NCBI RefSeq assembly: GCF_003325375.1
Contig: NZ_CP030862.1
Span: 1,863,501 to 1,927,500 of the forward strand
DNA from: Streptomyces globosus
GTDB taxonomy: Bacteria; Actinomycetota; Actinomycetes; Streptomycetales; Streptomycetaceae
DNA length: 64,000 nucleotides
Reading direction: 5' to 3'
This document shows, in pieces, positions 10,207 to 31,611 of this stretch. Within the stretch, counting starts at the first letter, position 1. Every line of letters starts with the position of its first letter. A program made the translations under genes and the position numbers. Under the pieces are notes generated by a model. The model made no database searches, was not told the origin of the DNA, and saw nothing but the letters and a program-made list of their open reading frames with translations.

Positions 10207-10572
10207 GTGAATACGTCAGCGGAGCGCCAGTTCCATCGAGACATGGTGGCTGGCGCTCAGCGCCTCAAGCGCGAAATCGGATACAACCCAGTCCGTTTTA
10301 CGCAAATGCTGGCGGAGATTGGAGCAGTCGAGACGGCTAAGCACCTGCTGCGAGGGCGGGATGCCTCGGACGGGTTCACGACTCTGTGGAGCGCCCGCCG
10401 ACTGGACGTCAGTGTTGAGGCGTTTGTTCTCTTGCCGTGGTACGAGGGCCTGTTCACCGATGCGGAACGGGGCACGGCGAGGCGGCGTCTGGAGGCGCAC
10501 AAGTTTGATGTGGCTCGGTATCTCCGCGACTGCGTGAGCACCCCTCCCCCTTGGGTGCCAGAATCGCTCTAG
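10207..10572 (+). CDS. Conserved hypothetical protein
   Basis: 121 residues, FHRDMVAGAQRLKREIGYNP, then ASDGFTTLWSARRLDVSVEAF and a C-terminal RRRLEAHKFD. I recognise this as a frequent small actinobacterial protein of unknown function. GTG 10207 follows GAGGAG at four bases. It lies 150 bp downstream of the adenylate kinase fusion. Confidence 0.6.
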   Translation: MNTSAERQFHRDMVAGAQRLKREIGYNPVRFTQMLAEIGAVETAKHLLRGRDASDGFTTLWSARRLDVSVEAFVLLPWYEGLFTDAERGTARRRLEAHKFDVARYLRDCVSTPPPWVPESL

Positions 10573-10614
10573 ACGAAAGTTGGGAGCCCGGAGGGCGCGG
10601 CCCCCTGGATGGCA

Positions 10615-11271
10615 TCAATCCGGGAGCGGGTCGCGCACCTCCCGCACATCCCGGCGCAGAAATCCCTCATACAACTCCTCCATCACGCGCCTCGCGTGCT
10701 GCGGCTCCGGAATCCCCACGCCAGCCCCCGGCCAGGGAGTGGTACGCATCATCCGGATCGCGAGCACGGCCCGCCGCTGCCCCAAGGACCGGACTTCAGG
10801 GTCAGCGGCCTGCATCATGGCCTGCATGCCCGCCTGAGCTCGCCCGGCGCGGGTCCGGTGAAGCTGGGCCGGTGACAGCACCAGGCAGGTCTTCCTGGGC
10901 GCGTACGGGGGATCGGCGAAGAGGCCGACGTGGCCGGAATGCGTGATCATGAATACCTCGCTTGGGTCTGGTACCCGAGCCGCCAGGGCTGGCCACCCCT
11001 GATCCAGCAGCCAGGCCTCGTACGCCGGATACCGGTCTTCCGAGCCGAAGTGCTCTGCCGACAGCTTCCAGAAGTCCTCCTCCGCCTCCATAGCCGCCTG
11101 ATGCAGGGTGCGGTGGACATCTGCGTGCATCTCTGCGGGAATCGCGATGCAGGCGACTCCGCCTCTGCGGTCACGGCTCCGCAAGCACACCATGCCGAAG
11201 TCCATACGGATCTCCAGCACATCGGACACAATCACGTCGTATGCTGGCCGCTGCTTTTTCCTCTTTGCCAT
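10615..11271 (-). CDS. Hypothetical protein
   Basis: 218 residues, soluble, starting with a basic MAKRKKQRP. It contains LFADPPYAPRKTCLVLSPAQLHRTR and a C-terminal helix-rich region. No family recognised. Convergent with the preceding plus-strand gene. No clear ribosome site at ATG 11271. Confidence 0.5.
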   Translation of the reverse strand: MAKRKKQRPAYDVIVSDVLEIRMDFGMVCLRSRDRRGGVACIAIPAEMHADVHRTLHQAAMEAEEDFWKLSAEHFGSEDRYPAYEAWLLDQGWPALAARVPDPSEVFMITHSGHVGLFADPPYAPRKTCLVLSPAQLHRTRAGRAQAGMQAMMQAADPEVRSLGQRRAVLAIRMMRTTPWPGAGVGIPEPQHARRVMEELYEGFLRRDVREVRDPLPD

Positions 11272-25503: not shown

Positions 25504-26172
25504 TCAGTTCCGGACGCCGCGGACCAGCAGGGTCCCGATGTGGCTGGGTGTGGGCGCATCGATCTCGCGGACCTCCACATCGGTGAAGCCGGCGGTCTCC
25601 ATGAACTCCTGCCACTGCTGGACGGTGTAGCTGTAGCGGTAGGTGAACATCACCGGTCCCGCGAAGCCGCCCTTGTACATGCCCTGGGGGCCGTAGGCGC
25701 CGGGGATGGCGGGGGGCTGGGAGAAGGCGAAGACACCGCCGGGGTTCAGGCTGTTGGCGACCAAGGGGAAGAGGCGGGAGGGGTCGGTGAACCAGGCGGC
25801 GCCGAAGACGGAGTACACCGCGTCGAAGGTGGTCTCGCCGCCGGCCAGGTAGGCGAGGATTTCGGCGCACACGAACTCGATGCCGAGGTGCCCGTACTTC
25901 TCGGTGCTGTGCGCGACGGCGACCGGGGACAGGTCTACGCCGGTGCCCTTGATGCCCTGCTCGGCGAGGTAGGCCAGGGCGCGGCCGGTGCCGTAGCCGA
26001 TCTCCAGGACGGTGGAGGGGTCGCCGAGGATGCCGGGGCCGGGGTCGCCGGGGTGGTCCTTGTACTGGGTCCAGCGGAACACCGGATCGCCGTTGCTGGG
26101 GTCCTTCCAGGCGCTCTCGGCGAAGGTGTCCCACAGGGCCTGTTCGTGCTCGTAGTTGTGCGGTGCGCTCAT
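25504..26172 (-). CDS. Class I SAM-dependent methyltransferase
   Basis: 222 residues with motif I VLEIGYGTGRALAYL (56-63), an acidic end of strand 2 (GVDLS) and SVFGAAWF. Its ATG overlaps the stop of the upstream gene (ATGA), so it is cotranslated with the putative RiPP operon. AAGGA lies upstream. It would methylate the peptide or a precursor small molecule; the substrate is unknown. Confidence 0.8.
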   Translation of the reverse strand: MSAPHNYEHEQALWDTFAESAWKDPSNGDPVFRWTQYKDHPGDPGPGILGDPSTVLEIGYGTGRALAYLAEQGIKGTGVDLSPVAVAHSTEKYGHLGIEFVCAEILAYLAGGETTFDAVYSVFGAAWFTDPSRLFPLVANSLNPGGVFAFSQPPAIPGAYGPQGMYKGGFAGPVMFTYRYSYTVQQWQEFMETAGFTDVEVREIDAPTPSHIGTLLVRGVRN

Positions 26173-26789
26173 GGCGGTGTCCTTCGGGAACGCGGGAGGG
26201 GCCCCGCCGGTCGTGCTGGCGAGGCCCACACCCTAGGGGCGGTTCGGTCGTGCAGGTGACGGTTTCGGCCGCCGGTCACCCGGTCAGTGGCTGTCGGGAC
26301 CTTGGAGTCGCACGGCGAGCACTGCGCGCCGTCCTTGGCCCACAGTTCCTTGTCCGGGGTGAACCCGCAGGAGCGCAGGAAGTCCGCGGTGCGGATGACC
26401 AGGCCGTCGCTGCGGCGCTTGACGAACGGGGCGTGGTGCTTGTACTTGCCGTTGTTGTACAGGTCGCAGAAGGCGAAGTAGACCGGGGTGTCGAGGATGA
26501 CCTGGTGGACGCCCTTGTCGACGATCTTCCCGACGCCGATGTGCACGTCCGGGTTCTCCATCGACGCGATCATGTACATCACGGCGTTGCCCAGGATCCG
26601 CTCGGCGGTCTCGCGGGTGTCGACCTCGTCGCGGAGCAGCAGGGCGATCTCGCGCTCCCAGATCGACATGCCGTCGTCGAGGATGTTGACGGTGAGGTGC
26701 TCGATCTTGTCCTGGACCGCGTTCAGCAGTTCCTTCGGGTCGCGGGAACGGTTGGCGACACGGTTGGGGTTGTCCAGCAGAACAGTCAT
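26169..26789 (-). CDS. Unknown protein in putative RiPP operon
   Basis: 206 residues. The first 165 are compact: PKELLNAVQDKIEHLTVNIL, DEVDTRETAERILGN, FAFCDLYNNGKYKHHAPFVK and a C-terminal CSPC. The last 35 are Arg/Pro-rich and may be a readthrough tail. GAGAGGAG precedes ATG 26789. Coupled by ATGA to the methyltransferase. I do not recognise the family. A binding or scaffold role is possible. Confidence 0.55.
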   Translation of the reverse strand: MTVLLDNPNRVANRSRDPKELLNAVQDKIEHLTVNILDDGMSIWEREIALLLRDEVDTRETAERILGNAVMYMIASMENPDVHIGVGKIVDKGVHQVILDTPVYFAFCDLYNNGKYKHHAPFVKRRSDGLVIRTADFLRSCGFTPDKELWAKDGAQCSPCDSKVPTATDRVTGGRNRHLHDRTAPRVWASPARPAGPLPRSRRTPP

Positions 26790-26983
26790 GGATGGTGCTC
26801 CTCTCGATCGCGTTCGAGTGGTGCATGGGTGGCGCCGGGGATCACGTCCCTAGACATGTCCCCGACGCCGTTCCTCTCCGTGCCGACTGCCTGGTCTGGT
26901 TCGGAGAGGAAGCCTGTGGGTGATGCGCACGCCCCGCCCCGGGCCGTAGGAGTGCGGGGCGGTGGCATCGGTGGTGCGCTTCG

Positions 26984-27571
26984 TCAGTGGGGGACCGGTG
27001 GGAAGTGAGCGACCGTACGCGCAGCCTGAGAACGCGCACGGAAGCCGAAGCTGATGAGGATGACGCTCTCTCCGGGGCCGAGCGGCGTCCGACCGTGCGG
27101 GGTGAACGCCCCGTCGAACACGACGCAGTCTCCCGGCGCGAGATCGCATGCGCGGTAGCCGTCAGCACCGATGAAGACGGTGGCGCTGATGGTGGGGGCC
27201 ACGGGGACGTGTTCGTGCTTGAGGCACAGGATCAGGTTCGCCTCCCCGAAGCCGAATTCGTCCACGTGGAAGTCGAGGAACTGCCCCTCTTCCAGGTAGG
27301 CGATGTAGACGCCGGTGTGGGGCTGCTCGACTTCCAGGCCGGAAGCCCGCGCTACGGCGGCGGCGAGGTCGACCTGGCCCGCGAAGAGGTTCGCCGCGTC
27401 ACCGACGGGTGCGTTCCACTTGCCGTTATGCAGGTACCCGTCAGCCGCGATGGCCTTCTCAGCCTCCTCCGTCATAGAGGTGAGTAGGTCGGCAGGGAAC
27501 GGCTGGTCGCGCACGTGGCTGGGCTGCACCCGCGCTTGGGCGGTGAGGCCGCGCACGGCGTGCTGGAGCAC
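26984..27571 (-). CDS. 2-oxoglutarate/Fe(II)-dependent oxygenase
   Basis: 195 residues, cupin-like. The iron triad is visible as H102-x-D104 (FHVDEF) and H159 (TPHGRTPL). A strand ILISFGFR near the end may hold the 2-oxoglutarate-binding Arg. GGAGGGG precedes GTG 27571. It lies in a run with an HExxH beta-hydroxylase, so it is probably a second hydroxylating tailoring enzyme (inference). Confidence 0.75.
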   Translation of the reverse strand: MLQHAVRGLTAQARVQPSHVRDQPFPADLLTSMTEEAEKAIAADGYLHNGKWNAPVGDAANLFAGQVDLAAAVARASGLEVEQPHTGVYIAYLEEGQFLDFHVDEFGFGEANLILCLKHEHVPVAPTISATVFIGADGYRACDLAPGDCVVFDGAFTPHGRTPLGPGESVILISFGFRARSQAARTVAHFPPVPH

Positions 27572-27646
27572 GGGAAACCCCTCCTCCCACCTTGCTGGCG
27601 CCCAGACCGTGGTGTGGGCCTGGAGCCATGTGGTCCAGCGGCTACT

Positions 27647-28204
27647 TCACGGCGCCGCTTCCGCCTGGCCGATCAGCATCTCCACGCGGTCGACGGCGGC
27701 CTGGGTGGACTCGATCAGCCCGGCGTCGCCCTTGGCGGTCCGCAGCCGCAGTGCTTCCTGAAGGTGGGCGCGGGCTGGCACGAGATCGCCCTGTTCCATG
27801 AGGTGCTTGCCGAGGTGTTGGAGAGCGAAGTCGACCAGCTCGGGATGCTGGCTCCGGGCGGCGTCCAGGGCTCCGCGGTAGAGCTTGTCTGCGGTCTCGG
27901 TTTCACCGGCGTAGCGGTACGCGTCGCCAAGGTTGAGTTCGGCGGCGATGACGGCCCTGGTGTTGCCGCTGGCGGTGGCCAGGTCGAGCGCCCGTCGCAG
28001 GAACGCGCGGGCGTCGTCGTAATCGCCGAGGACTACCAGACCGATGCCGGTCCACCTGGCCAGGACCCGCGCCCGGTCGGCCTCGCTTCCTTCGGGGAGC
28101 ACGCGCAGCTCCTCGCGGATATCCGCGAGGGCGGCGGCCAACTGGTCGCGGTCGGTCGGGACCATGCGCAGGGCATCGTCCTGGGTGATGAGGTGCTGGA
28201 GCAC
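27647..28204 (-). CDS. Tetratricopeptide-repeat protein
   Basis: 185 residues, nearly all helical TPR-like pairs: YDDARAFLRRALDLATASGN, then AELNLGDAYRYAGETETADK and HLGKHLMEQGDLVPARAHLQ. GGGGAGG precedes GTG 28204. It starts 11 bases after the hydroxylase stop. Likely protein-protein scaffold or precursor recruiter for the cluster. Confidence 0.75.
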   Translation of the reverse strand: MLQHLITQDDALRMVPTDRDQLAAALADIREELRVLPEGSEADRARVLARWTGIGLVVLGDYDDARAFLRRALDLATASGNTRAVIAAELNLGDAYRYAGETETADKLYRGALDAARSQHPELVDFALQHLGKHLMEQGDLVPARAHLQEALRLRTAKGDAGLIESTQAAVDRVEMLIGQAEAAP

Positions 28205-28214
28205 TCGCCCTCCC

Positions 28215-29141
28215 CTACAGCTCGTCGGTCTGGTGACGCAGGCCGGCCAGCAGCTCCCGGCCGTGGGCGGTGAAGTGCTCACCCAGGAGTTCGAGCTGGC
28301 CCATCAGGTAGCGGACGGCCGGCATGCCCTCGTCGTAGGCGGCCTGGAAGCACGCGCGCTCGTTGGCGGTCAGGTCGTCGCGGTCGAGTTCGGTACGGCG
28401 GAACCGCAGAAGTTGGTTGTACACGCACGTCGCGTGGAACGTCCGGTCCACCTCCCAGAACTGGTTGCGCTCCACCCCCTGCGATGCCCGCCACGCGATC
28501 TCGATTTTGGGGGAGGTCTGGGAGGAGTAGCCATCGGCGAAGACCTGGTGCGTCAGGACGTGGAAGCTGACTGACTGGTGGACGCCCTCGTGCAGGATGT
28601 TCTCCGCGAGGAAGCGGGGCGAGGGCTCGGTGCTGACGGTGTTCGGCGGGATGTGGAGCTGCGCCTTCCCGGAGAACACGATGACGTACGGGAGCGCGGG
28701 ATCGCTGGAGCTGGTCAGCGAGGAGATGCCGGCGTCGGGCTTGAGGCTCACCCACAGCAGTCCCCTGACGAACTCGCGTACGCGGGCGAAGCCGTCGGGG
28801 TGGACCGAGGCCAGGCGCTCCAGGGCGCGGGTCAGGGCTGTGCGGCGCGCGACGGTGTGCTCGGCGATGTCGTAATTACCCAGGTTGATCTCGCGGGCGA
28901 GCTGCTCGTGGAGGGTGCCGTCGAACCAGTCGAACGCGGTCCCGGCCACGTTCACCGTGTCACTGCCGAGGGAGCGGGAGTGCTCGGCGTAGGGGGTGCC
29001 GGATTTCACGAGGTGCTCCATCAGGGCGAACGGCAGGGCGCGTTCGGCGCCGTCTTCGCGGAGGCGGATCAGCGCCGGGTCCTGGCGTCCGAGATCGAAG
29101 AAGGTGCCGGCCTCTACTCGGGTAGCAATGGTGGTGTGCAC
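28215..29141 (-). CDS. HExxH-type peptide beta-hydroxylase (RiPP tailoring enzyme)
   Basis: 308 residues. HEGVH at 184-188 (AENILHEGVHQSVSFH) is the zincin-like HExxH signature of the aKG-HExxH peptide beta-hydroxylase family, linked to RiPP precursors in actinobacteria. Length and the YVIVFSGKAQLHIPPN stretch fit that family from memory. GGGAGG precedes GTG 29141. The gene lies 112 bp downstream of the repeat-containing precursor, with a hairpin between them. Predicted to hydroxylate residues in the core peptide. Which residues is unknown. Confidence 0.75.
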   Translation of the reverse strand: MHTTIATRVEAGTFFDLGRQDPALIRLREDGAERALPFALMEHLVKSGTPYAEHSRSLGSDTVNVAGTAFDWFDGTLHEQLAREINLGNYDIAEHTVARRTALTRALERLASVHPDGFARVREFVRGLLWVSLKPDAGISSLTSSSDPALPYVIVFSGKAQLHIPPNTVSTEPSPRFLAENILHEGVHQSVSFHVLTHQVFADGYSSQTSPKIEIAWRASQGVERNQFWEVDRTFHATCVYNQLLRFRRTELDRDDLTANERACFQAAYDEGMPAVRYLMGQLELLGEHFTAHGRELLAGLRHQTDEL

Positions 29142-29182
29142 GTGGGCCTCCCTGGTACGTGCGGCGGTGGAGACGAGTGCGA

Positions 29183-29211
29183 GGCGTCTCGGTATGAGCA
29201 GCCGAGACGCC
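29183..29211 (-). terminator. Attenuator-like hairpin between precursor and hydroxylase
   Basis: A perfect 10-bp stem, GGCGTCTCGG with CCGAGACGCC, and a 9-base loop. It lies in the gap between the precursor stop and the hydroxylase start. Partial termination here would give more precursor mRNA than enzyme mRNA, a common RiPP layout. Confidence 0.6.
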
Positions 29212-29253
29212 CCGCGGTGCCGTCAGTTAGAGGGCGTCAGTACTGCGCCAGGG

Positions 29254-29415
29254 TCAGACCGCAGGTGTCTCCGGCTCGAACACGCCGTCCGGGACGGAGT
29301 GGTCCAGGCGGCGGGTCAGGGACGTGACGGACGGCGGGTCCTGGGGAAAGGCGCCGTCAGGGACGGAGTGGTCCAGGCGTCGCGTCAGGTTGTTGACCTG
29401 GGTCTCGTTGGACAT
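29254..29415 (-). CDS. Putative RiPP precursor with tandem core repeat
   Basis: 53 residues. It begins MSNETQVNN and contains LTRRLDHSVPDG twice (residues 10-21 and 33-44), followed by AF or VF and acidic/Pro tails (ending EPETPAV). AAAGGGAGG lies seven bases before ATG 29415. The repeats are also near-identical as DNA (29283-29310 and 29352-29379, 27 of 28 bases). It has no Cys, so no lanthipeptide or sactipeptide ring. Position ahead of the HExxH hydroxylase marks it as the substrate. The short Asn-rich N-terminus may be the leader. Confidence 0.65.
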   Translation of the reverse strand: MSNETQVNNLTRRLDHSVPDGAFPQDPPSVTSLTRRLDHSVPDGVFEPETPAV

Positions 29416-29515: not shown

Positions 29516-29605
29516 TCACCGGCCCGGTCGACCGGCGAGTGCCAGGGCGAGGACGACAGCCGTGACGACGGCGACGTACGCAAGGACGCGAGCTGCTGGC
29601 GCCAT
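29516..29605 (-). CDS. Possible single-pass membrane micro-protein
   Basis: 29 residues, MAPAARVLAYVAVVTAVVLA followed by LALAGRPGR: one transmembrane helix with a basic end. No clear ribosome site. Called only from the hydrophobic pattern. Confidence 0.25.
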   Translation of the reverse strand: MAPAARVLAYVAVVTAVVLALALAGRPGR

Positions 29606-29639
29606 CCCCACGGGTCGCGCTCTCGTAAGCCGCTCGGGG

Positions 29640-29873
29640 TCACCGGTCGTCGGCGGGACGGGGCACGTCGGGGTCGAGAATCCATTCCTTGCCGCCGCCC
29701 TCGGGCCGCAGGAAGACCGCGTTGTGGATGAAGCGGCGGGTGGCGGGGTCCTCGAAGTCGCCAATGAACTGCACGATGGCCTCGCAGTCGCGGCCGGGGT
29801 CATAGACACGGGCCCCCTCGTGCAGCCAGGCAGGAAGACCCTGGTGGGACGTGGGGCGGGGCACGGTCATCAT
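29640..29873 (-). CDS. Small hypothetical protein
   Basis: 77 residues with LPAWLHEGARVYDPGRDCEA and a C-terminal GKEWILDPDVPRPADDR. GAGGA before ATG 29873 (ATG 29870 also possible). Its start overlaps the upstream stop, so the two are coupled. Unknown function, near regulators and the RiPP set. Confidence 0.5.
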   Translation of the reverse strand: MMTVPRPTSHQGLPAWLHEGARVYDPGRDCEAIVQFIGDFEDPATRRFIHNAVFLRPEGGGKEWILDPDVPRPADDR

Positions 29874-30221: not shown

Positions 30222-31073
30222 TCATCCGAGGGCGTCGAGCGCGGCCGTGATCAGCGCGCGGGCGTTGTCGCCGTAGACGGCCATTTTCGACAGCCCTTCG
30301 AACGCCTTCGCGTAGTCGTCCAGTTCACGGGGCTGGGTGACGCCGATTCTGGCGGTGAGGGTCTCCACGGCCACCCGGCGCTCGTCGTACAGGTAGAACG
30401 CCTCCAACGGCCACACGCTGCGCTCGGCGGCGAACGGGATGATCCCGAGGGAGACGGACGCGAGCGGCATCACGGTCAGCAGGTGGCGGAGTTGGCCGGC
30501 CATCGCGTCCGCGTCGCCGATCCGGGAGCGCAGCACCCACTCCTCCATCAGCACCGCGTAACGGTGGTTGCCCTCGTAGAGGAAGCGGGAGCGGGCGACG
30601 CGGGCGGCCACGGCCTCTGTGACGTCATCTGGGGTGCCCTGGAAGCGCGTGATGCTGCTCAGGAGGGCTGTCGCGTAGGCGGGCGTCTGGAGGAACCCGG
30701 GCACGACGTTGGAGACGTAGACGCGCTGGAGGGACGCCTGGGCGTTTGAGGCGTAGGCGTTCTCCTGGGAGCGGCGCAGGCCGTTGCGGTGGAGGCGGCG
30801 CCACTCCTGGTACATGGAGTCGACGGCGCGGGAGGTGGCGATCAGGTCGTCCACCTGCTCGTCGGCGCCGCAGGCAGCGCACCAGGCTCGGATGTCCGAG
30901 TCGGACGGGGCGACCTCTCCTTTCTGGATGCGGGTGGTCTTCGCGGGGTGCCAGTCGCACCGGGCGGACAGCTCCCGTCCGGTGAGACCGGCATCCCTGC
31001 GCAGGTGGGACAGGCGCACGGCGAGGGCTTCACGGGCCGCCTGTGCGCTGGAGGAGGGGGATGCGGGCACGGG
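30222..31073 (-). CDS. XRE-family HTH regulator with DUF5753 domain
   Basis: 283 residues. HTH at about 15-70 (LSHLRRDAGLTGRELSARCD, KTTRIQKGE), then DUF5753 with VVPGFLQTPAYA and VLMEEWVLRSRIGD. GTG 31073 begins eight bases after the DUF6879 stop, so the genes are coupled. It forms a typical Streptomyces HTH-DUF6879 pair and may regulate the adjacent peptide cluster. Confidence 0.85.
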   Translation of the reverse strand, partial: PVPASPSSSAQAAREALAVRLSHLRRDAGLTGRELSARCDWHPAKTTRIQKGEVAPSDSDIRAWCAACGADEQVDDLIATSRAVDSMYQEWRRLHRNGLRRSQENAYASNAQASLQRVYVSNVVPGFLQTPAYATALLSSITRFQGTPDDVTEAVAARVARSRFLYEGNHRYAVLMEEWVLRSRIGDADAMAGQLRHLLTVMPLASVSLGIIPFAAERSVWPLEAFYLYDERRVAVETLTARIGVTQPRELDDYAKAFEGLSKMAVYGDNARALITAALDALG

Positions 31074-31080
31074 TGTGGGG

Positions 31081-31611
31081 TCAGACGGCGTACTGGTCGT
31101 GCGGGATTCCGCGCTCCCACACTGACTCGAACGCCGACGCGCACAGCTTGACCATGGCGGGGTCCTCGGTGCGCACCTTCGGTTCTTCCGGGTGCCAGTC
31201 ACCGGTACCGGTCCAGTTGTGGAGCTGGACCAGGCGGCCGTCGAACAGCCAGAAGTCCGTGCCGGGCAACGCGATGTCGAAGGCGCGGCGCCGCGGAAGC
31301 CAGCGGACCTGTTCGCCCGCGTCGATGTTCATCTGGGTGCCGGCGTGCTCGTAACGGATGTAGTCGCTCACCGGCTCGGAGATGATGCGGGCGCGACGCA
31401 TGACGACGCCGCGGGCGGTAGCGGCGGAGACCATGTTCAGCCAGTTGGAGCGCTCCGCCCGCTGGGATGCCTCGCTCCACTCCCCGCGCAGGAATGACGC
31501 GAATGAGTCGGCCTCGCTGGGCACCCCGTAGCTGTCACGCATCTCCAGGTGGACTGCTGACGTCTGCGTCTGCTCCAACAGCTCCGCGAAGCTGGGCGCG
31601 TTCTGCGGCAT
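31081..31611 (-). CDS. DUF6879 family protein
   Basis: 176 residues with the recurrent pattern SAVHLEMRDSYGVPSEADSF, a central RARIISEPVSDYIRYEH and GTDFWLFDGRLVQLHNW. Family proteins accompany DUF5753 regulators. Its start lies inside the upstream gene (77-base overlap). Confidence 0.75.
   Translation of the reverse strand: MPQNAPSFAELLEQTQTSAVHLEMRDSYGVPSEADSFASFLRGEWSEASQRAERSNWLNMVSAATARGVVMRRARIISEPVSDYIRYEHAGTQMNIDAGEQVRWLPRRRAFDIALPGTDFWLFDGRLVQLHNWTGTGDWHPEEPKVRTEDPAMVKLCASAFESVWERGIPHDQYAV

Follow-up and report, generated by a model that had tools for sequence, protein, structure and literature searches.

Streptomyces globosus carries a gene for a 53-residue peptide in which one 11-residue word occurs twice, followed on the same strand by genes for predicted oxygenases. 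The locus raises the question of whether these genes form an undescribed pathway for a ribosomally synthesised and post-translationally modified peptide (RiPP). The window analysed here was a stretch of 64,000 nucleotides of contig NZ_CP030862.1 (positions 1,863,501 to 1,927,500, forward strand), and all positions below refer to it. An initial annotation had raised the possibility of such a pathway with six open reading frames (ORFs), and we found all six on the minus strand where it had placed them. Our results agreed with it in that the precursor lies beside an α-ketoglutarate (αKG)-HExxH-type enzyme in many genomes. However, two of the six ORFs fell outside the pathway. We propose, with fair confidence, that the remaining genes form a predicted RiPP cassette. 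Its two Fe/αKG oxygenases, which are mechanistically unrelated, would oxidise the repeated core, with the invariant Asp of each copy as the likeliest site. Judged from its genes, the cassette appears to be real, conserved and of RiPP type, and both its pair of oxygenases and its precursor are unusual. Because the same word adjoins relatives of these enzymes in other actinobacteria, the product is probably a modified ribosomal peptide of a kind not yet described.

The gene order on the minus strand from 29415 to 26984 was precursor, a 112-base gap, hydroxylase, a tetratricopeptide repeat (TPR) ORF and an oxygenase ORF, with ribosome-binding-site-like stretches ahead of every start. The precursor was MSNETQVNNLTRRLDHSVPDGAFPQDPPSVTSLTRRLDHSVPDGVFEPETPAV, with AAAGGGAGG upstream of its ATG. 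It contained no Cys, had a leader of only 9 residues and was the sole match in its own genome (E of 1 or better). When 5.8 billion proteins were searched, 80 homologues were obtained, its own sequence included. Their length was 50-60 amino acids (aa) in 78 of 80, and the hosts, where named, were Streptomyces, Kitasatospora and Peterkaempfera. Two copies of the motif were found in 79 members and three copies in one (P0145), which had just VTR between the motifs. The pattern L-T-R-R-L-D-H-x-V-P-D was near-invariant in both copies. Asp6 was present in 160 of the 161 motif copies, and His7 and Pro10 in 159 each. GDFAP after the motif was well conserved, and the remaining precursor residues were variable.

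Selection on the motif was estimated from the proportions of nonsynonymous and synonymous differences (pN/pS) over the 18 loci with the motif. The copies were gathered by motif pattern, which missed no listed precursor. For copy 1, pN/pS was 0.0048/0.278, indicating very strong purifying selection, and for copy 2 it was 0.0896/0.288. Comparison of copy 1 with copy 2 inside one peptide gave a pN of 0.063 and a pS of 0.210, and the copies were identical in three loci. Since pN was well below pS, the repeat seems to be maintained mostly by protein-level selection and not by recent duplication. The ORF thus combined a ribosome-binding-site-like stretch with protein-level conservation, as expected of a ribosomal precursor. 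In addition, a one-copy precursor was found on a plasmid of Streptomyces sp. NBC_01006, beside an uninterrupted hydroxylase gene and a fused TPR-oxygenase gene; one-copy ORFs of this kind are sequence-based predictions.

We compared 23 loci (the window, L008-L011 and L030-L047) to determine how closely precursor and enzymes are linked. The hydroxylase was present in 5 of 391 genomes of the order, the window genome included and one copy being partial. It matched in 17 of 70 Kitasatospora genomes, full length or nearly so in 14, and the precursor lay directly upstream in 13 of these 14. Searching these 70 genomes for the precursor (E 0.01) yielded matches in 14, of which 13 bore the motif; the match in G456 (E 0.004) was dropped because it had no motif. 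No motif-bearing precursor was found in the 53 Kitasatospora genomes that lacked a hydroxylase match. G394 was the sole Kitasatospora genome with a full-length hydroxylase and no precursor, and its upstream sequence was unlike the others up to the ribosome-binding site. Over the 23 loci, 18 had a full-length or nearly full-length hydroxylase and 17 of those 18 had the precursor; L038 and L040, where the matches begin at residues 13 and 5, were counted as nearly full length. L011 kept the precursor with a truncated hydroxylase, and the cassette was decayed or partial in L044-L047. The hydroxylase gene was also found in 4 of 72,556 plasmid records, full length in two, so the cassette can sit on plasmids. 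The modifying enzymes therefore adjoin the precursor across genomes, and the finding of repeat peptides beside related hydroxylases elsewhere, whose absence the initial annotation had named as a refutation, favours the proposed cassette.

The 308-aa protein encoded after the precursor matched TIGR04267 (aKG-HExxH peptide beta-hydroxylase, NCBIfam) with E 5.6e-6, although below the curated cut-off. All 12 relatives sampled matched TIGR04267 at E of 0.01 or better. The HExxH motif was present in all 87 homologues of at least 295 aa, including the protein itself, where it reads HEGVH. A PDB sequence search gave no match at E of 1 or better, and the protein was therefore assigned by fold comparison. 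Its predicted model has the αKG-HExxH fold of ChlB and SjiH over the whole domain. Three claims of the initial annotation were borne out by these results. The word does occur twice, and the family of 80 showed that this is not chance. A predicted HExxH-type hydroxylase does follow the precursor. Besides the absence of Cys, no radical SAM, YcaO or lanthionine-enzyme family matched among the ten window proteins scanned (Pfam, NCBIfam). For the cassette region, Pfam matched TPR repeats and, farther along, a generic methyltransferase, but no other family.

The TPR protein and the 2-oxoglutarate (2OG) oxygenase had been described as two genes. This was revised, since in 18 of the 23 loci one ORF, 410-446 codons long, covers both. 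In the window, the TPR ORF starts at GTG 28204 by alignment with relatives. The two ORFs were in the same frame with one TGA (27647-27649) between them, and the residues past the TGA still aligned to the linker of the fused relatives. Separate translation of the window oxygenase ORF could occur, given GGAGGAGGGG before GTG 27571. The gene was frameshifted in the S. nojiriensis locus L008, and oxygenases without a TPR part also exist (P0192, P0194). The metal-binding triad and the 2OG-binding Arg of 2OG oxygenases were found as HVD...HGR in the window. H321, H378 and R380 were invariant and D323 nearly so in a family alignment that excluded the lone window TPR piece and four fragmentary or chimeric proteins. 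Pfam 2OG models remained below cut-off, the best being PF13640 (E 0.0075), which matched in 5 of 12 members sampled, and the window oxygenase ORF had no Pfam 2OG match at E 0.1. The first Foldseek matches of the TPR-oxygenase model were AspH (5jqy, E 2e-8), the P. putida prolyl 4-hydroxylase (4j25) and PHD2 (5la9), and the best prolyl 4-hydroxylase match had a target TM of 0.70.

A hairpin lies in the gap between precursor and hydroxylase. Its 15-bp stem was kept in 17 of 17 aligned loci; L038 was excluded from this alignment because its hydroxylase match begins at residue 13 and the sequence has a run of N, and the hairpin is visible there. Together with a smaller preceding stem, 96.9% of cells were paired and 5 pairs were changed on both sides. 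The covariation score was 0.245; shuffles gave 0.115, and slid controls did not exceed 0.077. The window hairpin stretch alone had a z of -2.90 relative to its shuffles. No U-run followed the hairpin in the window, and no known RNA family matched at gathering score between 25000 and 31700 (one sub-threshold match elsewhere, RF02833, had E 0.5). Given the lack of a U-run, the hairpin may act in partial termination or mRNA stabilisation.

Clusters in another order of the same class helped to separate the possible roles of the motif. Strong hydroxylase matches were found there in 3 of 327 genomes (G793, G844 and G870), and their precursors carried the motif in single copy. The G793 cluster contained the precursor MSKDISNVSVERLTRRLDHMVPEPRMLATITSAEEVDAPETPGDDA, an oxygenase, a hydroxylase, a second 2OG-like protein (found by tblastn, with no Pfam match), an M13 peptidase, a weak TPR protein, an aldo-keto reductase and two major facilitator superfamily (MFS) proteins. 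The G844 cluster contained a precursor ending in VNRLTRRLDHSVPEPMLLEEPKKSS, an oxygenase, a hydroxylase and an MFS-like gene. In G870, a 23-aa peptide, MDIEQIAERIERLTSRLDMVIPD, which ends on the motif and is itself a sequence-based prediction, was followed by a hairpin comparable to that of the window, a hydroxylase and an MFS-like gene. The 17.6 kb around this cluster held no oxygenase homologue; a lone 29-residue match (E 0.12) lay inside the hydroxylase gene. The motif shared by all lineages was L-T-x-R-L-D-x-x-[VI]-P-[DE]. Asp6 was kept in all four lineages compared, and the His7 position was Met in one distant precursor. The G793 and G844 precursors had longer tails after the single motif. 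Genes for leader removal or export were thus seen as MFS-like genes in three distant clusters and as an M13 peptidase in one, with none recurrent in the Streptomycetaceae loci. Weak hydroxylase matches in G953 and G896 (E about 1e-6; L086, L087) were dropped, since no clear cluster was present.

Based on the above results, we propose the following mechanism. The hairpin would let the precursor outnumber the enzymes in production, and the TPR domain, a peptide-binding fold, would hold the precursor. The HExxH enzyme would β-hydroxylate Asp6 of the motif (LTRRLD). The 2OG oxygenase, with AspH and prolyl hydroxylases as its first Foldseek matches, may act on another residue, most probably Pro10 or Asp11 (VPD). 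Asp6 is the first-choice target and Pro10 the second, because Asp6 was kept in four lineages while His7 was not, and because the HExxH enzyme was the only one found in G870. Asp hydroxylation in the motif, as the initial annotation had suggested, is therefore plausible from the sequences, and its alternative, His, is less so given the Met in one distant precursor. A distinct variable core may be small or absent, with the motif acting as recognition word and substrate alike. The motif itself is the likeliest substrate, because the G870 precursor ends on it and P0145 has almost nothing between its copies. Cleavage and export would be carried out by unlinked genes in S. globosus.

A motif so conserved could also be a recognition sequence only. 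In that case each copy would be followed by its core, a short variable segment (GDFAP...), in a recognition-core cassette repeated twice. Repeated recognition-core cassettes occur in other RiPPs, and the near-invariant motif, the more variable segments after it and the longer tails in G793 and G844 would fit. However, the three-copy P0145 and the G870 peptide, which stops at the motif, leave no such core to modify, and we consider this explanation unlikely. Alternatively, the peptide may regulate or signal inside the cell: the TPR protein would sense it, and its modification by the oxygenases would serve to sense oxygen or 2OG. The peptide sequence is conserved and not diversified, no exporter family recurs in the Streptomycetaceae cassettes, and the TPR part is similar to Rap/PlcR-type peptide receptors (RapI, RapF and PlcR were among its VIA rows). 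This is nevertheless quite unlikely, since the usual TPR fusion partner is an oxygenase and not a DNA-binding or phosphatase domain, the distant clusters carry MFS-like genes and in one case a peptidase, and only 6 of 23 loci, the window included, have a DUF6879-HTH gene pair close to the precursor. There is also a slim chance that the HExxH enzyme cleaves the peptide, oxidatively or hydrolytically, and frees both copies without a separate protease. The tandem motif and the lack of a recurrent protease nearby would suit this. Backbone cleavage by the αKG-HExxH enzymes PflC and PosC takes place at a C-terminal motif that is conserved, and PflC is also capable of hydrolysis (PMC12636437). However, PflC hydroxylates too, the motif is unlike ARMD, the cut site is not predictable, and the G870 peptide has no residues after the motif to remove.

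Several points weigh against the proposed oxidation of the motif by two oxygenases. The cassette is a prediction from genes and models, and no protease or exporter family recurs beside it in the Streptomycetaceae loci compared. The hydroxylase score of 26.5 bits was lower than the curated TIGR04267 cut-off of 40. The TPR-oxygenase model was moderate (pLDDT 82.2, pTM 0.59), and the AspH match, with TM-scores of 0.26-0.27 and a root-mean-square deviation (rmsd) of 21.8, rests on domain order and local fold. The 50 rows of VIA-align for this model spanned essentially the TPR half alone. For the hairpin, 6 of 500 shuffles equalled its count of doubly changed pairs, and the structure was derived from the same sequences used for counting, which favours the hairpin. 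Decayed copies showed that the cassette is readily lost. The TPR-oxygenase gene was split by a stop in the window genome and frameshifted in L008, and L011 and L044-L047 were decayed; therefore, the second oxidation may be dispensable or lost.

The enzymes were compared with known systems. Reported targets of hydroxylation by αKG-HExxH enzymes are Asp, His, Phe, Gln and Pro, and PflC/PosC are reported to cut the backbone as well (PMC13060819, PMC12636437). The αKG-HExxH enzymes are described in PMC13060819 as a newly recognised oxygenase fold whose substrates are not yet predictable. The model of the window hydroxylase has the same fold as the HExxH domain of ChlB (PDB 8s5f), which belongs to the fused radical SAM-αKG-HExxH enzymes. 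In contrast, the window enzyme stands alone, has low identity and a different precursor, and no radical SAM or cyclophane-forming partner was present among the scanned window proteins. For SjiH (PDB 22ob), the likeness lies in the fold. PflC/PosC of Pseudomonas and PesO of nitrilobacillin are stand-alone αKG-HExxH enzymes acting on RiPP precursors, as the window hydroxylase is predicted to be. Their reported chemistry comprises Gln hydroxylation with backbone cleavage, and Pro β-hydroxylation (PMC12636437, PMC13060819). Unlike the window, the clusters of these enzymes have other precursors and employ MNIO enzymes, a nitroreductase domain or an AS-like protein. A pairing of HExxH and TPR-2OG oxygenases on a tandem motif does not appear in the accessible parts of the two papers.

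The fused layout of the cassette enzyme is like that of AspH and prolyl hydroxylases with TPR and 2OG parts. AspH is reported to lack the carboxylate ligand. The cassette enzyme differs from it in being bacterial, in the HxD...H triad, in the small repeat peptide encoded beside it and in the poor overall superposition. Multi-core RiPP precursors of the cyanobactin or microviridin type likewise carry several substrate-unit copies in a short peptide, as the window precursor does. However, the window copies are almost identical with hardly any leader, and no macrocyclase, protease or ATP-grasp recurred in the Streptomycetaceae cassette loci compared. RRLDHS, LTRRLDH and LDHSVPDG were found in no searched literature text, a scope outside which most subscription articles lie. 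No description of the cassette was found in titles or abstract openings among the literature matches listed for HExxH RiPP hydroxylases, TPR/2-oxoglutarate RiPPs, SjiH/ChlB, TIGR04267/IPR026337 and β-hydroxyaspartate RiPPs, and RiPP hydroxylation in Kitasatospora gave no literature match. A bolder extension, which we hold to be doubtful, is a RiPP class whose precursor consists almost entirely of an 11-residue word in one to three copies, with the word as both docking site and substrate. Two convergent αKG hydroxylases, one of zincin-fold HExxH and one of TPR-guided prolyl/aspartyl type, would act on the word. The product would be linear and rich in β-hydroxy-Asp, with hydroxy-Pro, and tandem copies could together chelate metal, as a ribosomal counterpart of β-hydroxyaspartate siderophores. 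If the proposed cassette is correct, two unrelated hydroxylase folds share one peptide, and a TPR-2OG fusion of AspH-like layout is placed in a RiPP cassette. With about 80 precursor sequences, one conserved word and natural one-, two- and three-copy versions, recognition and site choice are directly testable.

Table 1. Positions of the cassette features in the window
Feature	Position	Strand	Basis
Precursor peptide gene, 53 aa, two LTRRLDHSVPD copies	29254..29415	-	repeat, homologue family, pN/pS
Motif copy 1, residues 10-20	29356..29388	-	family alignment; pN/pS over 18 loci
Motif copy 2, residues 33-43	29287..29319	-	3 synonymous bases differ from copy 1
15-bp RNA hairpin in the precursor/hydroxylase gap, attenuator- or stabiliser-like	29178..29216	-	conservation and covariation
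Stand-alone αKG-HExxH-type peptide hydroxylase (predicted), 308 aa, HEGVH	28215..29141	-	
TPR domain, separate ORF here, N-terminal half of fused gene in most relatives	27647..28204	-	Pfam TPR_12 E 1.6e-13; alignment with fused relatives
2OG-Fe(II) oxygenase domain, HVD...HGR, same frame as TPR ORF; GGAGGAGGGG and GTG before	26984..27571	-	
In-frame TGA splitting the TPR-oxygenase gene in the S. globosus genome	27647-27649	-	alignment

The initial annotation had also included the 206-aa protein and the methyltransferase in the pathway, with coupled or short-spaced genes. These two genes (25504-26789) overlap by ATGA and are thus likely one operon, which agrees with the claim of coupling, but a 194-base gap separates the pair from the oxygenase. 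Neither had a homologue in the sequenced stretches compared around the other 22 loci. Of the 391 genomes of the order, 186 had a member of the 206-aa family, and a methyltransferase homologue followed the 206-aa gene in 11 of 11 other loci examined, without a precursor. Apart from their closeness on the same strand, nothing we found linked them to the peptide, and that they also act on it is very improbable. We regard them as neighbours and not cassette members, an independent, widespread pair. The 206-aa protein and methylation were accordingly rejected as parts of the pathway, and the suggestion of a methylated peptide has no basis left once the methyltransferase lies outside the cassette. 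The corrected gene list, without this pair and with the TPR-oxygenase as normally one protein, spares a false start at the bench.

Further genes were observed beside the distant clusters. A protein of 147-160 aa is encoded beside the hydroxylase in G793 (L077:8292-8738) and in G844 (L085 reverse complement 10312-10794), and the two are 58% identical. Its sequence includes QLRRRLDELVPDE, which imperfectly resembles the precursor motif, and the protein could serve as another substrate or mimic the precursor. Further on in G793, about 8 kb from the hydroxylase and with two MFS genes among the genes between, L077:17683-19017 encodes an ATP-grasp protein with PreAtp-grasp and PGM1_C domains. We take it to be of the pheganomycin-ligase type, and it might extend the G793 peptide.

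Upstream of the window precursor, DUF6879 and helix-turn-helix (HTH)/DUF5753 genes were located at 30222-31611. Four other loci (L035, L036, L040 and L042) have a similar DUF6879-HTH pair close to the precursor, and in L044 one lies close to the decayed cassette. DUF6879 homologues also adjoin the unrelated 206-aa/methyltransferase pair. In the NBC_01006 plasmid locus L089, a small membrane-protein-like ORF (DPWGWRQQLA...) was present upstream of the precursor. Its counterpart in the window lies at 29516-29640 on the minus strand, with parts in two frames. After the plasmid cassette, L089:8389-8988 is a gene annotated as a Shedu SduA-domain protein.

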